Shown here: positions 19,522 through 30,200 of the stretch, in pieces
How positions within the stretch are numbered: the stretch's first letter is position 1
Layout of the letters: each line of letters starts with the position of its first letter
Assembly: GCF_963675165.1 (NCBI RefSeq)
Contig: NC_087392.1
Coordinates: 4,857,442-4,921,441, forward strand
Source of the DNA: Halichondria panicea
Lineage: Eukaryota > Porifera > Demospongiae > Suberitida > Halichondriidae
Direction: 5' to 3'
Length of the DNA stretch: 64,000 nucleotides
Notes under the pieces: model-generated
What the model saw: the letters and a program-made list of their open reading frames with translations, nothing else
Databases searched by the model: none
Told to the model about the DNA's origin: nothing
Translations under genes and position numbers: made by a program

Positions 19522-20690
19522 CTAACTCTTCTCCACGCAAATATAAGTAGAGCACAAACAGAAGAGCCCAAATATTGGTAGCAGAATCCAAGACAAACCC
19601 ATAACAGCTGGAGCTACTTCAGTGGAAGAGCAAATCCCAGCTGGGTCGTTGATAAAGTTAATATCCAGTGCCACAAATACAGTGTTTGCAATCAAAGTGC
19701 AAAAATGCAAGGGTTAGGAGTGACACAGCTGAGCAACACAAGCATTGCACAGTGGGGCTCTTTGTGTTCCAGCAGTGTGCACAGCAGAGGATGGACATAA
19801 TGAAAGTTATAGAACCCAGAACCAGCCCACTGATGGCAGCACTTGATATAGGGGCACATGACAACAAACCAACAGCAGCTGCAAAAGTAGTAAGAATATA
19901 ATCATTATTGTTTAAATATTTTCACTATGTTGGACCATACTATAATATAGATAACAATCACTATACAATATTGTATGTTACACTGCTAGTTTAGTTAGAG
20001 CCTTGGTCCCATGCCGATTTTTAAATCAACTGGGACCGAGGCTACTGTCTAGTTAGCCTTGATTCCAGGCGGCCTGAAATTGAGGCTATACTGTCTAGTC
20101 TGCTAGGAAACCAGTTTAAAGGAAGCTATATAAATGTATAAATGACCTGACCACTAAATGTAGAAATGTATATAAGGTCAACTTACCTATAGGGATGATT
20201 ATCGCAAGGCTCATCAAGAAGATGAAGCAACTGCACAAAAGCCCTGCAATTAATTCATGATGCATACAGTTAAAAATAATGCAACTTATTATACTTACAT
20301 GCAGCTGCATGATTTGCACACTCTACAATTGACATCAGGGTCATCAGATGGGCTCCCATTTACGTGGTGCTGCAAGGCTCGATCACTGCATGGAGTGTAA
20401 CTTGGAGGACCCTGCACTGAGATAAAAAGGAAACTTCATATAATTATAAACAATATAAAAAAATGGTACAAAAAATTTAACTTGCAAGTTCTATAAATTA
20501 CCACTTGTGTGACTTGCACTTGCTCTGTAACAAGAATGGTATGTCCACCTCCATCTATAGGAACCTGTGCAACCACAGTCTTCTTCTGGCCCGCCATACC
20601 AGTCTCCTCGTCGTACATAAGCTGTGTGCGCTCTCCCATCACAGCATCGCCATGCTGCACAACTCTAACGTGGTTTACAGTCAATGCCAT
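19522..20690 (-). pseudogene. Four-TM unit E, frameshifted
   Basis: Exon 1 (20502-20690) is intact and close to that of unit A. Exon 2 (20299-20411) has four extra bases (GCAT) just before its GTAAGT donor, changing the phase. Exon 3 (20187-20243) is normal. Exon 4 (19522-19878) has lost 2 bp after the codons for LTLAFL, so the third and fourth membrane segments lie in another frame (break near 19700), and the tail ends early at CVEKS. The two shifts do not compensate each other. It is most likely a young pseudogene; a sequencing or assembly error would have to occur twice. Confidence 0.65.
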
Positions 20691-21508
20691 CTCTGTGATC
20701 TTCTCTAATTAAGTTCTTGAATCTAGTGAGCACAATCCAATGTGTTTTAGATTTTTATGCCGCGCTCACAAGACGTGGCTAGCATGTATAGCGGTAGAGT
20801 AGTAATTATAGATCAAGGCGCGTGTGCAGTTACTAAAAAATAGGTAAAGATCAGTAACTAAGCAAGCAAAATTAATACGTAAAAAGTTTAAAGACACAAC
20901 TAAAAATGTCACCGTATGAGCTACCACACACAAAACTAAACTTTAGAACTAGGCAACATTGTTTGCATCACTAATAGGCTTGTCCACGCAAATAAAAGTA
21001 GAGCACAAACAGAAAAGCCCAAACAATGGTAGCAGAATCCAAGACAAACCCATAACAGCTGGAGCTACTTCAGTGGAAGAGCAAATCCCAGCTGGATTGT
21101 TGATGAAGTTAGCCACAAATACAGTGTTTGCAATCAGAGTGGCCAAAAATGCAAGGGTTAGGAGTGTCACAGCTGAGCAACACAAGCATCACACGGTAGG
21201 GCTCTTCATGTTCAAGCAGTGGGCACAGCAGAGGATGGATATAATGAAAGTTATAGAACCCAGAACCAGCCCACTGCTCGCAGCACCTGACAGGGGGGCA
21301 CATGACAGCAAACCAACAGCAGCTGCAAAGATAGTATCATTATTGTCTAAATATAATATGTTTTCACTATATGTTGGACCACAGTACATAAAAGAGATAA
21401 CAATGTTGCACTACTGTTCTAGTTAGCCTTGCATAGTCCCATGCCAATTTTTAAGGACCAAGGCTACTGTCTAGTTAGCTTTGATTCCACGTGGCCTGGC
21501 GAGGCTAC
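19997..21508. repeat. Short palindromic interspersed repeat (CGAGGCTA family)
   Basis: Copies at 19997-20046, 20053-20090, 21421-21471 and 21475-21508 have the form TAGCCT(C/T)GATTCCAGGC...GGCCTGG..CGAGGCTA. Relatives occur at 868-904, 3394-3428, 8202-8231, 9123-9143, 15356-15399 and 57271-57306. They cluster between four-TM genes. The class is unknown; they are probably very short foldback elements. Confidence 0.65.
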
Positions 21509-22132
21509 TGTCTAGTTAGCTAGGTACATGTGTAACCATGCCGTAGTTTTAAAGGAAGCATAGTGGATAAATGACCTGACCACTGAAAGTAGAACTGTAG
21601 GGTCAAACACTTACCTATAGGGATGATCATTCCAAGGCTCATCAACAAGATGAAGCAACTGCATGAAAGCCCTGCAATAATTAATTTATGATACATGTAG
21701 TTTAAATAAAGCAACCAAATGTACTTAAGACTTACAGCTGCATGATTTGCAGACTCTATTGTTGGTATCAGGGTCATCAGATGGGCTCCCATTGACATTG
21801 TTCTGCAAGGCTTGATTAGTGCGTGGAGTATAACTCGGAGGACTCTGCAGTGAGATAAAAATAAAACTTATATCATAATATAATTACAAAGTATTAAAAT
21901 GGTACAAAACATAATAATGATTTAACTGACAAGTATAAATTACCACTTGTGTGACTTGCACTTGCTCTGTAACGAGAATGGCATGTCCACCTCCCTCCAC
22001 AGGAACCTGTGCAACCACAGTCTTCTTCTGGCCCGCCATACCAGTCTCCTTGTCGTACACAAACTGTGTGTACTCTCCCATCATGGCATCGCCGTGCTGC
22101 TCAACTCTAACGTGGTTTGCAGTCAATGCCAT
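20949..22132 (-). pseudogene. Four-TM unit F with in-frame TGA
   Basis: Exons 21944-22132, 21736-21844, 21615-21671 and 20949-21322 all splice in phase over 243 codons. However, exon 4 has TGA at 21189-21191 where every paralogue has CAA (Gln) after KSPTV. Upstream and downstream parts remain open and conserved (CAHCLNMK before; CCSAVTLLTLAFLATLIANT after). The change needs two substitutions from CAA. The product would lose the last two membrane segments unless the stop is read through. The upstream motif is present at 22249-22276. Classed as a recent pseudogene, with readthrough as an untested alternative. Confidence 0.6.
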
Positions 22133-22427
22133 CTCTATGATCTTCTTTAATTAAGTTCTTGGATCTAATGAGCGCGATCGTGGCTAAAGTGATTAAGAGG
22201 GAAAGGGGTAGTCTTTGGAACAAAGTGATATGGAGGGTTATTTTGGGTGGGTAAAGATCCTTAACTAAGCAAACACTACAACTGGTTTATTGTACATTGT
22301 AATCCAATTGCTAGTGGAACCATTCCTACCATATTACAGTAGCAGCTTGAGCTAGCTGATAGAACAAAGTTTGTCAAGTTTTAGTTATGCTTGAGAGACC
22401 GAAGCAGCTGTGATATCAAGGCCCAAG

Positions 22428-23579: not shown

Positions 23580-24179
23580 AAAGCTGTTTAACTTTAGACT
23601 TGAAAAATGAAAAATGTGCTTTAGTATAATTATTATAAGTAGCCGTAAATAGACAATTAAGTACCTGTCTTTATGGAGTATACTAGTTCTAAAGCTTGGC
23701 TCTGTTGTTTGGAATAAAGTTAATGGGTTTTGTGAGCCATATGGCGATTAGAGTAGAATAGTTCATTAGTGGTTTGTTATCAGTGTGTTTGTTGTATTGT
23801 TGTGTTTGTCTGCCCTCGATGAAGGAGTGTTGTTTTGATCCCTGCAGCTGATGTCAATCGGCCTGGTAACGGTGGGAAAACCCCTCTCCACAAGGCAGTC
23901 AGTGGCGTCCTTGGACAGGTGAGCTAAATATGTAGTGTGTGTGTGTGTGTGTGGTGGTGGGTGGGTATGTGTGCGTGTGTGTGTGTGTGGTGGTGGGTGG
24001 GTATGTGTGCGTGTGTGTGTGTGTGTGGTGGTGGGTGGGTATGTGTGCGTGTGTGTGTGTGTGTGGTGGTGGGTGGGTATGTGTGCGTGTGTGTGTGTGG
24101 TGGTGGGTGGGTATGTGTGCATGTGTGTGTGTGTGTGGTGGTGGGTGGGTATGTGTGCGTGTGCGTGGCGGACGGATGG

Positions 24180-24248
<69 letters not shown>

Positions 24249-27200
24249 CGTGCGTGTGCGTGCGTGTGCGTGCGCGTGCGTGTGCGTGTGCGTGTGCGTG
24301 TGCGTGTGAGTGTGTACGGCTGATAGTAAACATTGTTATTTGTTTTTAGCACAAATGTCAATCGTGATTATCAAGTCAAAAAGTGGGAAATAGTAAAATT
24401 GCTGGAAATGACTCCTCTGTATGCACTACACACAACACACTAGGTGCCACAGAATAGGGAGAATGAAGGCAAGATCCATGACAACCAGATGAGCATAGTC
24501 CAACTGCTTGTGTCCCATGGTGCCGACCTCAAGATCAGTGACCACACAGGTACTGGGTTATATCCATCAGTACAGGTACTGGGTTATATCCAGACCACAC
24601 AGGTACTGGGTTATATCCAGACCACACAGGTACTGGGTTATATCCAGACCACACAGGTACTGGGTTATATCAGACCACACAGGCACTGGGTTATATCCAT
24701 CAGTACAGGTACTGGGTTATATCCATCAGTACAGGAACACGTACAGCTGAATAGTTCATTAAAAACGTAAACGTCAAATCTCTCTCAGCTGTGCAGAGCA
24801 AGAGTTACAATGTATGAATGTCTTGATGGGGTTGCAGTTTATCAGTGTGTACTTTCAGTTTGTACCACATTTCTAACCAGTAGCTCTATTGCTTAATTGG
24901 GTGATCTCTATTGTGTTAGAGTATAATTGCATTGTGTTAGGAATTGTATGGCAGTGTATGAAGTGTGTAGTGCTTCTGTGTTGACTGGTGGTGTGTTCCT
25001 ATTAAACGAGAATGTCGCGTTTATAAACAGTACGCGTTCGTTGCAAGCAATCGCGATCATGCAGCCTCCGCTGCGGTATAAAAGGAAAGTAGCAGGCCGG
25101 AAGTAAAATCATTGCGAACAAAATGGCGCCTAGTTTGAAAATGATAAGAACTCAGCTCTTGTACACGCACATAAACCAACAAAACATGCTCATTCCAGGC
25201 CACGTGCAATATCCACATGGCCATAAGTTATAATAACAATGGCTTCCAAAGAAGAGATCGAGGTAAGAATAAAATGTCATCATTTCAATCATAATTATAC
25301 CATGTACAGGTAACAGTTAAATATAAAGACACTCCACCACAAGTGGTCGTTAGTAAAATAAATAAAGTAGTTAAAGAGCTCCGGGAGGCAGGACTCAGGC
25401 AGACGGTGAAGCTTAGGTGGGAGGCTGTCCCAGACGCCGTCCCAGATCAGCCAATGCCACCTATTAGTAAGAAAATAAACATGATAATCAATGATATTTT
25501 ATTAAAACTTATTTGTCCGCAGCTCTCTCTCCAAGTCATCCACGGGGTTACAGAGACTCTGCCCTCGTCCCTGTCTTACAGGGACTGCAGGACTGCTGTC
25601 CACACTGCCTCTGTGGGCCGTGTGTGATTGCTCTTCCTCCAGACTTCCTAACCGGTGCCTGTGGACCTCATCCAGCAAATGATGAAAAGAGGCACCGGTT
25701 GTATCGGAAGTTTTGGAGGTTGCTCCAGGACGTGGGTCTGTGGGGAGATGAGGAGTACCTGAGGAGGAAGGAGAGGCGGACTGTCAGGCATGACAAAAGG
25801 GACATAATGCCCAAATGTGTGATTGTAGTAAGTATAATTTTAGTTACTGCGGAAATTGCTTACAGTTATCATTACACAGGAAATAAGAAGGCGATACCCT
25901 AGTGTCGATGGGACCTACAGGGACTATTTGTCGACATTCGATGCAGAGAATATGGAACTTTAGAATGTTGTGTTTTGTAATTAATTATAATACCTATTCT
26001 CTGTCGTCGCTATCTGAATCTGACTCCATATCATCACTAGGCAGAAGGGGGGGTAACATGCCATCAGTGAGCCAGTCTTCATCGTTGTCACCATCTGGCT
26101 CAATATCCTCAAACTCACTGTAATAACGTAAGTTGAAAAAGATGCTCACTACTAAAAATTCCACCGTTGCTGAGCTGAGGGGTCAATATGAGAGCCAGTG
26201 ACCCGATTGCTTAGGAACACACACACAACTTTTCCACACGTACACATACCTCAAATCGACGCCGTTCCTTGCGACATACTCTGTCCAAAGCATACCCGCA
26301 AAATGATAAGACTTACTCACGAGAGCTTTCATGTCAGTACGCCTGTCAGGACGGCGAAGGTCTTTAACCTTTCTCTTACTGGTGTGGGCACGATTCACAT
26401 TCTCGTTCTAATGACAACACACAAATTCATTTTAAAATAAATTTTGTAATCATCTTACCCAGTCAAGTACGGCCAGGTTCATTCTCATGAGAAAAGTCTC
26501 GTCAGAATAGTGGATACGTTTGGACAAGTAGATCAGCAGCTGGTGGTTGAATGACTCTACCCAGAACGTGTCCCGACACTACATGACAGCAAGTTTTTTT
26601 TCGGTAATAAAATTACTATCATTACCCGACAGAAAGCATCCGCATTCTTGAAGACGTAGGTAGCCTTGATGCACCTAAGGAGCTCCTCTTCTGCCTTCTT
26701 GTTGGTAATCTGAGCACGACTGGGTATATAGGGAGCCATACGACAGGGAGACGAGGCATGGCAGTTAGAATGATCACCCTGTACGAGCAGTTTGGAGTCA
26801 GTACAGTAATGGGCGATGACATTTACCTTGTAGTGGTTGGGGATGTTGAGAGCCATCTGCTGTAGAATGTTAGGGTCCTCACCACAGTTCTTCATGGCCC
26901 AGTACAAGTGTATCTTGATACTGCGCCCTAAATGAATAGACATTTATCAGTGACGTATACGTACCTCAACATCATCTTCACTTACGTTTATCAGAGAGTT
27001 CAGGGAACCACGTTATGTTCCGATCTCTGACCCGACCCTCTGTGATCTTCTTGAGCTCCCGGGCTACGTTCTTAGTACCTGATAGTGATGCATATAGTTT
27101 ACATGTATCCAATAATATGCAGCATACCGTGCCATGTGTCATAGGAGTTGATGAGATTGAGGGTGTGTGTCACGTACTTAGCAACCTGAGCTTGCATGTC

Positions 27201-30200
27201 ATGCCCAACCTCAGTAACATTCAGACCTGAGACAATCATTAGTATACAATGAAATAATTTATTACGTAGTTAGTTAGTTACATTTACCTCTAGCAATGAC
27301 TTGGGGAAGAACAACCTTGGTACACTGCAATTCTCTGGTCTGAGCTACCGAGTGCTCTGTCCGAGAGATGGTGGAGATGCCAAGGATCTTATGAGTGCTA
27401 AAAATTACAACACTTAGTACATGTATGTACTAAACACTAACTAACATACCTTCCTGAAAGGCAAGGCACAGTCGTATGATACGCATTGGCCGTGGAATCA
27501 TGCCTAGCGTCAGTTATCACCCACTGAAATAGAATAATCAATAAAATAAATACAAATTATTCAACAACGTACTTCTCCCTTAGTGCTGTAGTGTGGCAGA
27601 GCCTTGACTTCCTCTACAGCCGACTGCATGGAGTGTTCAGCTGCCGCGGCCACAATCTCTAGGTAGCTGTTGTTATTGTATACTGTGAAAGAGAAAGTTA
27701 GTGAAGTACATGTCTTTGTACCATATATACCTCTCCGGATGTAAGCATGACCAACTGTGCCCAGTCCAGCGAACATAGAGAGATGTATGTACTGGGATGG
27801 AATGATCCCAGCACAAGTGAAAGAGTGTACCATCCTATAAGAGTAAATTAATCAGTATAGTGATGGTGTGGCCAAATAATTACTTCTGATTGACGAGGAA
27901 GTGTCCTCCAAACACGCGAGAGCTAGACCATGATCTCTTCTGGTGCCGGCAGTGACGACAAGAGTACAAAACTCTGATGACGTGCCCTTTCTAATAAAAC
28001 AATCACGCATATAGTGTAAACAAGCTAAAACAAACTACCTGAATCACAGAGTCCAGTCGCCAACAACTTCGAACCAAACACTCCGAGCACGATGACGCCA
28101 GCCCTGTCATCAAATCATCAAAGCAGCGCTTCTCAGTGATGAACAAGGTCTGATCATCAGGACTGTTATCACCAGTGTACATCCCTGATAGAACAGGACT
28201 GTATAACTAGGTAAAAAGAAGGCTATTACACTCACCATTGTCTCTCAAGAAGGGCCTAACAGACCCTTGATCACTTGTGGGCGTACCTTCATCAGCACTA
28301 GCTAGTTTCTCTTCTACAGCGTCTAGCATGGCGTTTATGAGAGAAAGGTTGTCAATGGTACGTCCAGCAGGCGATAGCTTCTTCCTCACTCTCTCTATCC
28401 TTGCCTGTAGAGCTTGTTTCTCTTCAGGAGAGCCAAGATAGCAGTCAAAACTGTGGCGCGGTCGTTTTCTACGATTAGCCATTTTTAGAAACTAAGTCTT
28501 GTCCTAGCTGTTGCGTAATGCCCATGTGGCTCTGCAGGCCCAAAAAGGGGCGTATTTCTGCATAAGTAAGGGTTTGTCAGACGGTTTTATAAAGACTCGC
28601 AAACAGTCGCCATTTTTTTCTTATGCGCCATGATACCTGGCCTGCTACGCCCCTTTTATACGGCGCATGCTCGTTTAACAGTACACTCATAATAATATTC
28701 ATATCTCTGGTAATTAAAAAACAAAGTTAAGTGCTGTTGTTGCAAGCAAGTACTGTTCTCTAACCACCTCTTGACAGAGCAATATTATCTTCTAGTGTAC
28801 CTTCTACACTTGCTCTGAGTTTGTCCTCAGATCAATACGTATATTGCATGTAACTAACTAACTTCAGTGTGTTCGCTAGCTTGATTGTTCACCGCAGGGT
28901 TCGCCCCTTACATGCTGTACCTCCCTTAATTGCAGGGTTCACCCCTCGGGAACTGGCCATGCAGTGTGATTTCTACGAGTGTGCGGACCTCATTGATGAG
29001 CTGGCGAGGGTGCAGCTGCAGCAAGAGGTGGCACGCATCAAAGAGAGCAGAATCAAAGGTACAAACCCTACGAACCCTACGAACCCTAGAGTTGCCCATA
29101 ACTTGAGTGTGCAGTGATCAATTACCAAATTAAAATATGTATTTTGTAGCTCTTCATAGCTCTATAATGGTGTGCTTTTTAGTCAATTTCACCAATTTTG
29201 ACAAAAGCGATTAAAGTCTCTGTATTTAGTGGATTTTTAACATGCCCACAGAATTCTTGTTTTAATCATAAGTGTACATGTTCATTCAGGGTGTCATACA
29301 GGGAGGGGAAAGGGGGGATATCCCCCTCTAGCTCCCATTTCCCCGCCTAAAATTTGCATTCAGGTATTAGTTGGGGTCCATAGCTAGCATTTTACATACT
29401 AACAGGGTATTGAAATAACAGTTGACCTTTTTTTAGCAAAATTTTCTAGTTACTTTTCTTATTTACCCCCTCTACTTCAAAATCCTGTATGACACCCTGA
29501 CATTATACATCTGTATCGAGTGTCACCAGTCCATGTTCCATTCCGCCAGGTCTGTTCAGTGCTTGTGAGGGAGGTAGCCTGGAACTAGTGAAGGATATAC
29601 TTCCCAACATTCCCGAGGCCGTCAACGACTTTGTACTGAGAGACGAGAATCTATTCATGTGGTGAGTATCCATGGAGATTATCATACAGTGAAACCTGTC
29701 TATGGAGGTCAGACTAGCAGCTGTAATAAAGAGGTGGCGTGCTAGCACAGGTCCAAACACATTCTATGGAGACTTTAGGGCCCATTAACCTGGCTGTATT
29801 ATAGAGGGTGGCCTGCTTATAACCACAATATACAGGTTTCACTGTTATTTCTGATATACCATATAGCGTTAAATTTTTGAGGCATTTATATTTTGTGGAA
29901 TGGCCTCTAAAAGCATTTTGTTACACAATGTTCGTGGGATGACTGCTTACTAGAAGCCACGCCTTTAATCTTTGCACGTTATAGCAGATAATTCTAGTTA
30001 AAGAACAATTTTTGTGGAACTTATTTTCGTGTAGGATTGCTAACCCACAAAAACTGTGAAAATGAAAATTTCCCACTATACGGTCTAGCATCTTCATTTG
30101 ATTGTGAATTATCACTTTTGGTATTTAATGTTTAGCAGTGTTTGTGTCAACAGGTTGTGTGTTTACACGGAGGCATTCAGACTAGCACAATCAGATTGTT

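Follow-up and report, generated by a model that had tools for sequence, protein, structure and literature searches.

A recently active TTAA transposon in the sponge Halichondria panicea and its small second gene, a probable remote relative of the P2X7 ballast domain

How does a protein whose C-terminus recalls the tail of the P2X7 receptor come to be encoded beside a transposase in a sponge? The locus that raises this question lies in the window, by which we mean the whole 64,000-nucleotide stretch of Halichondria panicea DNA that was analysed (GCF_963675165.1, contig NC_087392.1, positions 4,857,442 to 4,921,441). The available text of Kojima and Bao (2022; PMC9587614) describes KolX of the Kol0 Kolobok transposons as clearly similar to P2X7 476-595, which is the ballast domain. 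It places Kol0 in vertebrates, annelids, cnidarians and sponges, and proposes that P2X7 is a P2X4-like gene fused with KolX. It also reports that a few piggyBac families encode a KolX-like protein without most of the cysteines, and it proposes zebrafish Nanor as a domesticated KolX. The ballast domain was described across Metazoa by Rump et al. (2020; PMC7016195); in the accessible parts of that paper, an LCCRx3GxC cluster belongs to the described domain, and ballast-type proteins also occur as stand-alone animal genes. Among the papers listed, PMC9587614 is the only one seen to connect Kolobok with this domain; PMC9319628 has "Kolobok" and "P2X7" once each. As far as the available text of PMC9587614 goes, the presence of the ballast domain in Kolobok and the idea of its capture by P2X7 are already published, and the window element is a divergent variant. 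The central idea of the preliminary description, that a P2X-type receptor gene could have acquired this domain from a transposon, is right in kind and precedes neither of these points.

The explanation that we hold with high confidence is that the window contains a Kolobok-related TTAA transposon with a DDE transposase and a convergent gene for a KolX-type accessory protein, a remote and reduced relative of the ballast domain. The features of the element are collected in Table 1.

Table 1. Coordinates of the transposon and its two genes in the window.
Feature	Positions	Strand	Size	Basis and remarks
Whole transposon, TTAA to TTAA	25002..28678	.	3,677 bp	ends read, plus two other full-length copies
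KolX-type gene, exon 1	25239..25262	+		splice model
KolX-type gene, exon 2	25310..25466	+		splice model
KolX-type gene, exon 3, with CPHCLCGPC cluster and MPKC cysteine	25523..25827	+		splice model; recurs in related loci
KolX-type gene, exon 4, with IRRRYP...Y motif and stop	25880..25963	+		splice model
DDE transposase gene, 14 exons	25994..28482	-	581 aa	splice model; PF20700; aligns with L071 transposase pieces

The element begins with TTAAACGAG at 25002 and closes with CTCGTTTAA, whose last position is 28678. The left end reads TTAA followed by ACGAG and the right end CTCGT followed by TTAA, which is the same arrangement at both ends when read inward, and these ends are common to families A, B, C and D. 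Two copies are untidy: the left end of L065 is without TTAA, and a partial copy on contig C9, 94-96% alike to the window element, has an end that reads TTAAACAAG. The genome search returned two full-length copies besides that of the window. The copy at C2:6753353-6757029 has 2 differing alignment columns, neither of them in either coding sequence. The copy at C2:5753610-5757284 has 36; a 12-bp insertion, a 5-bp deletion and a 9-bp deletion are among them, the last in exon 2 of the transposase gene without loss of frame. Inside 25239-25963, the gene of the 189-aa protein, neither copy has a single differing column. The flanks are unlike among the copies. Two empty paralogous sites, on C11 and C10 and both for the copy C2:5753610-5757284, carry a single TTAA each, where the filled site has TTAA on either side. 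It follows from the copies and these two sites that the element transposes with duplication of TTAA, and that it has done so recently. A search for an empty paralogue of the window's own insertion returned its own flanks only, and a scan of the genome for the TTAA-spaced pattern was uninformative. The window element is a cut-and-paste DNA transposon that targets TTAA and has been active recently. The preliminary description had placed the domain gene beside a transposase within the same TTAA borders, and so they lie, both intact. Left-end fragments of the element, alike to it over ~400 bp, were also seen in L016 (G000:C1:17332701-17333082; 99%) and L018 (G000:C15:2402796-2403223; 90%), and are possibly truncated or non-autonomous copies.

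The element sits among host sequences. Upstream of it, the piece at 22395-22637 matches ankyrin repeats (Ank_4, 1.8e-10), and two other host pieces tested gave no match. From the sequence, we infer that an ankyrin-repeat gene received the insertion in one of its introns. A long TG-rich simple repeat and minisatellite, at 23936-24310, separates two exon-like pieces of that gene. Further upstream, 19528-22179 holds two diverged copies of a stretch, ~1.43-1.45 kb apart (five repeat families, 83-94% alike), probably a tandem gene duplication.

The same genome contains a second element type, with a clear KolX, that serves as a comparison. It is represented by L071 (1138-5121 within G000:C7:4018500-4025500), which has ends of TTAA followed by AGGGAGGG and inverted repeats of ~214 bp; L072 (C7:6477400-6484400) is 98% alike to it over 3.5 kb. 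The L071 transposase pieces match THAP (5.3e-20) and PF20700 (27.8 bits). An exon on the opposite strand matches P2RX7_C at 2.4e-8, and the joined KolX finds rat P2X7 at E=1.9e-5. Judged by these features, L071 fits the description of Kol0 Kolobok with KolX in the available text of PMC9587614. Its transposase frame appears interrupted.

The window transposase is related to that of L071. Its 14 exons, with GT/AG borders, form an intact gene convergent with the KolX-type gene. In Pfam at E<=5, the protein matches PF20700 ("Mutator-like transposase") alone, with 29.1 bits against a cut-off of 26.5, and there is no THAP match; a PDB search gave chance-level matches only. A transposase profile was built from 9 of 19 rows, several of which run out of frame where they cross introns. 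Its alignment with the L071 pieces spans 312 columns at E 4.1e-8, the reversed-sequence control being 0.28. In this alignment, the acidic residues of the window transposase stand opposite those of L071, with VESFN opposite LEAFH. The extent and significance of the alignment lead us to class the window element as Kolobok-related.

Several features stated for Kolobok can be compared directly. A DDD/E transposase of Kolobok type is present in that PF20700 scores above its cut-off in both the window protein and its comparison partner, L071, and the 4-bp TTAA target-site duplication is seen at the C11 and C10 empty sites. A C/DxxH motif with a zinc finger between the second D and the E is another stated feature; at this place, several family rows have a HYxxxHxxCxxxSxC pattern, and a clear C/DxxH was not seen by eye. 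The termini 5'-RR and YY-3' are not found, as ACGAG follows TTAA in the window copy and in families B, C and D. Relative to Kol0 as given in the accessible part of PMC9587614, the window element is alike in its TTAA duplication, in having two genes, one for a DDE transposase and one for a small KolX-type protein, and in a transposase homologous to that of the Kol0-like L071. It is unlike in ending 5'-AC rather than 5'-RR, in showing no THAP match where the L071 transposase has THAP, and in a small protein with fewer cysteines and a sub-threshold P2RX7_C match. Because of the missing 5'-RR termini and THAP match, we do not assign it to Kol0.

It might instead be asked whether the element belongs to piggyBac, of which the available text of PMC9587614 reports a few families with a cysteine-poor KolX-like protein. 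The element's TTAA target, lack of 5'-RR ends and cysteine-poor KolX-like protein would all suit such an assignment. We nevertheless consider it very improbable, since PF20700 is the one family that the transposase matches in Pfam at E<=5 and its profile aligns at length with the THAP/PF20700 transposase of L071. Set against the piggyBac KolX-like proteins, known by description in the accessible text, the window element differs in having a transposase that matches PF20700 and the Kolobok type.

Is the small protein of this Kolobok-related element really of the KolX type? Its four exons join in frame with GT/AG borders into an intact 189-aa protein. The Pfam model P2RX7_C (PF20478) matches residues 150-177, across the exon 3/4 border, at E=0.0017 and 18.7 bits, which is under the curated cut-off of 23.5. 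The same model is matched at E<=1 by five of the six members of the family alignment, the best at 0.00074. Compared with the L071 KolX, the family profile aligns over 21 columns (E 0.0024, probability 12%), and with L071 KolX plus rat P2X7 over 24 columns (score 26.1, probability 14%). The best of 100 column shuffles scored 22.9, and none reached the real score. PDB searches with the family profile and with the 189-aa protein gave chance-level matches only, and that with the profile did not recover P2X7. An AlphaFold2 model of exon 3 alone was poor (pLDDT 58.8), and Foldseek with this poor model found nothing in the PDB at E<=10.

The motifs tell a similar story of partial likeness. The window protein has the CxCGxC cluster and the MPKC cysteine. 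With the P2X7 ballast domain (P2RX7_C, PF20478; the ZCD of PMC7016195, as given in its available text), it shares the CxCGxC cluster, a PxC cysteine with (E)IRxxYP after it, and a tyrosine close to the C-terminus. It differs from that domain in lacking the LCCRx3GxC cluster, in its spacing and in scoring under the Pfam cut-off. The domain has 7 or 8 zinc cysteines in three clusters according to the accessible text of PMC7016195, whereas clusters one and three are partial in the window protein and only four cysteines, C86, C89, C94 and C159, are invariant in the six-sequence family alignment. One further segment resembles, by eye only and with a different spacing, RHCAYRSYATW of rat P2X7. We conclude from the sequence comparison that the C-terminus weakly but non-randomly resembles the ballast domain. 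The preliminary description had the protein end in a P2X7-like pattern and looked to profile and structure comparison for confirmation; the C-terminal likeness stood up in the Pfam match and the shuffles, while the score fell short of the cut-off, the second cysteine cluster proved absent and the PDB search did not return P2X7.

A likeness of this size could also have arisen by convergence on a short motif rich in cysteine and arginine, in which case this would be some other small zinc-binding protein of transposons with no kinship to KolX. We think this unlikely, although it draws on the sub-threshold P2RX7_C match, the shortness of the aligned part, the different spacing of the conserved segments, the absence of P2X7 from the PDB profile search and the lack of a structural match with the poor exon-3 model. 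Against it, no shuffle attained the profile score, one and the same Pfam model was matched by nearly all of the family alignment, and the gene is placed and oriented, relative to a homologous transposase, just as the clear KolX of L071 is. We regard the 189-aa protein as distantly related to KolX and the ballast domain, in reduced form, because position, orientation, the homologous transposase and the C-terminal motif agree; sequence likeness alone would be insufficient. Of the second gene that characterizes Kol0, the window element accordingly has a remote KolX-type version only, which converges with the transposase gene and stays below the cut-off for P2RX7_C.

If the KolX-type gene belongs to the transposon, it should recur with the transposase, as the preliminary description had anticipated for other copies. 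We surveyed the genome (131 Mb, 39 contigs), where 62 matches to the 189-aa protein merged into 45 domain loci. At least 28 of these lie within 5 kb of a transposase match, on the opposite strand in 28/28, so the anticipated recurrence is found within this one genome. The count used all 62 KolX matches and 56 of the 173 transposase matches, drawn from a listing of part of these mostly by passing over rows of loci already represented, and is therefore a lower bound; a further, 29th linked locus is at C1:9091187. By chance, ~0.2 linked loci would be expected (49 transposase loci x ~10 kb in 131 Mb, x 45). With the 56 transposase matches used, 17 of the 45 domain loci lack a transposase match at this distance, and 21 of the 49 transposase loci lack a KolX match. 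Thirteen of those 21 are on C1, and both of the two examined there still carry the last KolX exon on the opposite strand; as far as the sequence goes, this looks like internal deletion. Twelve transposase loci without a KolX match lie within less than 1 Mb at G000:C1:88148-1001298, and L078 and L079, two of the twelve, retain KolX's last exon alone.

The two genes also appear to have diverged together. Over five families, KolX and transposase identities correlate with r=0.73, a value reached by one of 120 label permutations, namely the observed order. This figure is to be read with the facts that the fifth family's transposase contributes 222 columns only, that some rows are partly out of frame, clean D1 and D2 motifs being confined to L073 and the window row, and that family C pairs KolX from L052 with the transposase of a different copy, L075.

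Purifying selection acts on the small gene. In exon 3, eight between-family pairs give pN of 0.20-0.38 and pS of 0.59-0.88, with dS saturated in five of the eight. The three within-family pairs, with synonymous/nonsynonymous changes of 0/1, 0/1 and 5/3, have too few changes to judge selection.

These results bear on whether the gene does anything for the transposon. It could be passenger cargo from a host ballast-type gene with no role in transposition, a source made plausible by the stand-alone animal genes described in the accessible parts of PMC7016195, and the 17 domain loci without a nearby match among the transposase matches used would fit such a history. This we regard as improbable to a greater degree than convergence, in view of linkage and opposite orientation that repeat across divergent families, the correlated divergence of the two genes, and between-family pN well below pS. 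A role in transposition is favored because of co-retention and selection, and of the two possibilities offered by the preliminary description, that the domain spreads as cargo or as an accessory, passive cargo is the less likely because of the low pN between divergent families. That the domain gene is part of a DNA transposon is upheld by its place between TTAA ends and the recurrent linkage.

What the accessory protein would do can be proposed in outline. It may be stabilized by zinc, and it may help the transposase at the element's ends through binding of DNA or nucleotide or through assembly of the transposition complex. Our best guess is a zinc-stabilized, DNA- or nucleotide-binding transposase helper. 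The available portions of the published descriptions state no function for KolX; a lead is the guanosine nucleotide binding site in the domain of rat P2X7 described in the accessible text of PMC7016195. By its description in the available text, zebrafish Nanor is like the window protein in being a small stand-alone ballast-type protein and unlike it in being a host gene outside a transposon. In a search for relatives elsewhere, the window-type protein gave 60 pattern matches in viral contigs and 21 in prokaryote genomes, and the clear KolX/P2X7 pair gave 25 in viral contigs, none of them confirmed. Against the Kolobok-related explanation as a whole stand the sub-threshold P2RX7_C match, the profile-profile probabilities of 12-14% over 21-24 columns, the absence of P2X7 from the PDB profile search, the poor exon-3 model that matched nothing, the 5'-AC ends and the unlinked loci (17/45 and 21/49).

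A bolder reading, which we offer tentatively as less likely true than not by some way, is that the element represents KolX-bearing TTAA transposons of a lineage not yet described, whose ballast domain has been cut to one four-cysteine zinc site and an IRxxYP tail and kept as a strongly selected transposition factor. The divergent lineage may be new by its 5'-AC ends, lack of a THAP match and reduced cysteines, and the supplements of Kojima and Bao or Repbase may list it. If this reading is true, the reduced-ballast lineage would reveal an old working core of the P2X7 tail.

For the Kolobok-related transposon with its KolX-type accessory protein, the meaning is more immediate. It provides support, from a single genome, for the published claim that the P2X7 tail is at home in Kolobok, in the form of recurrent linkage, recent mobility and selection. 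The divergent form of KolX may narrow down which residues are important, and the family, intact and with copies that are nearly identical, offers a convenient starting point for studying the role of KolX.
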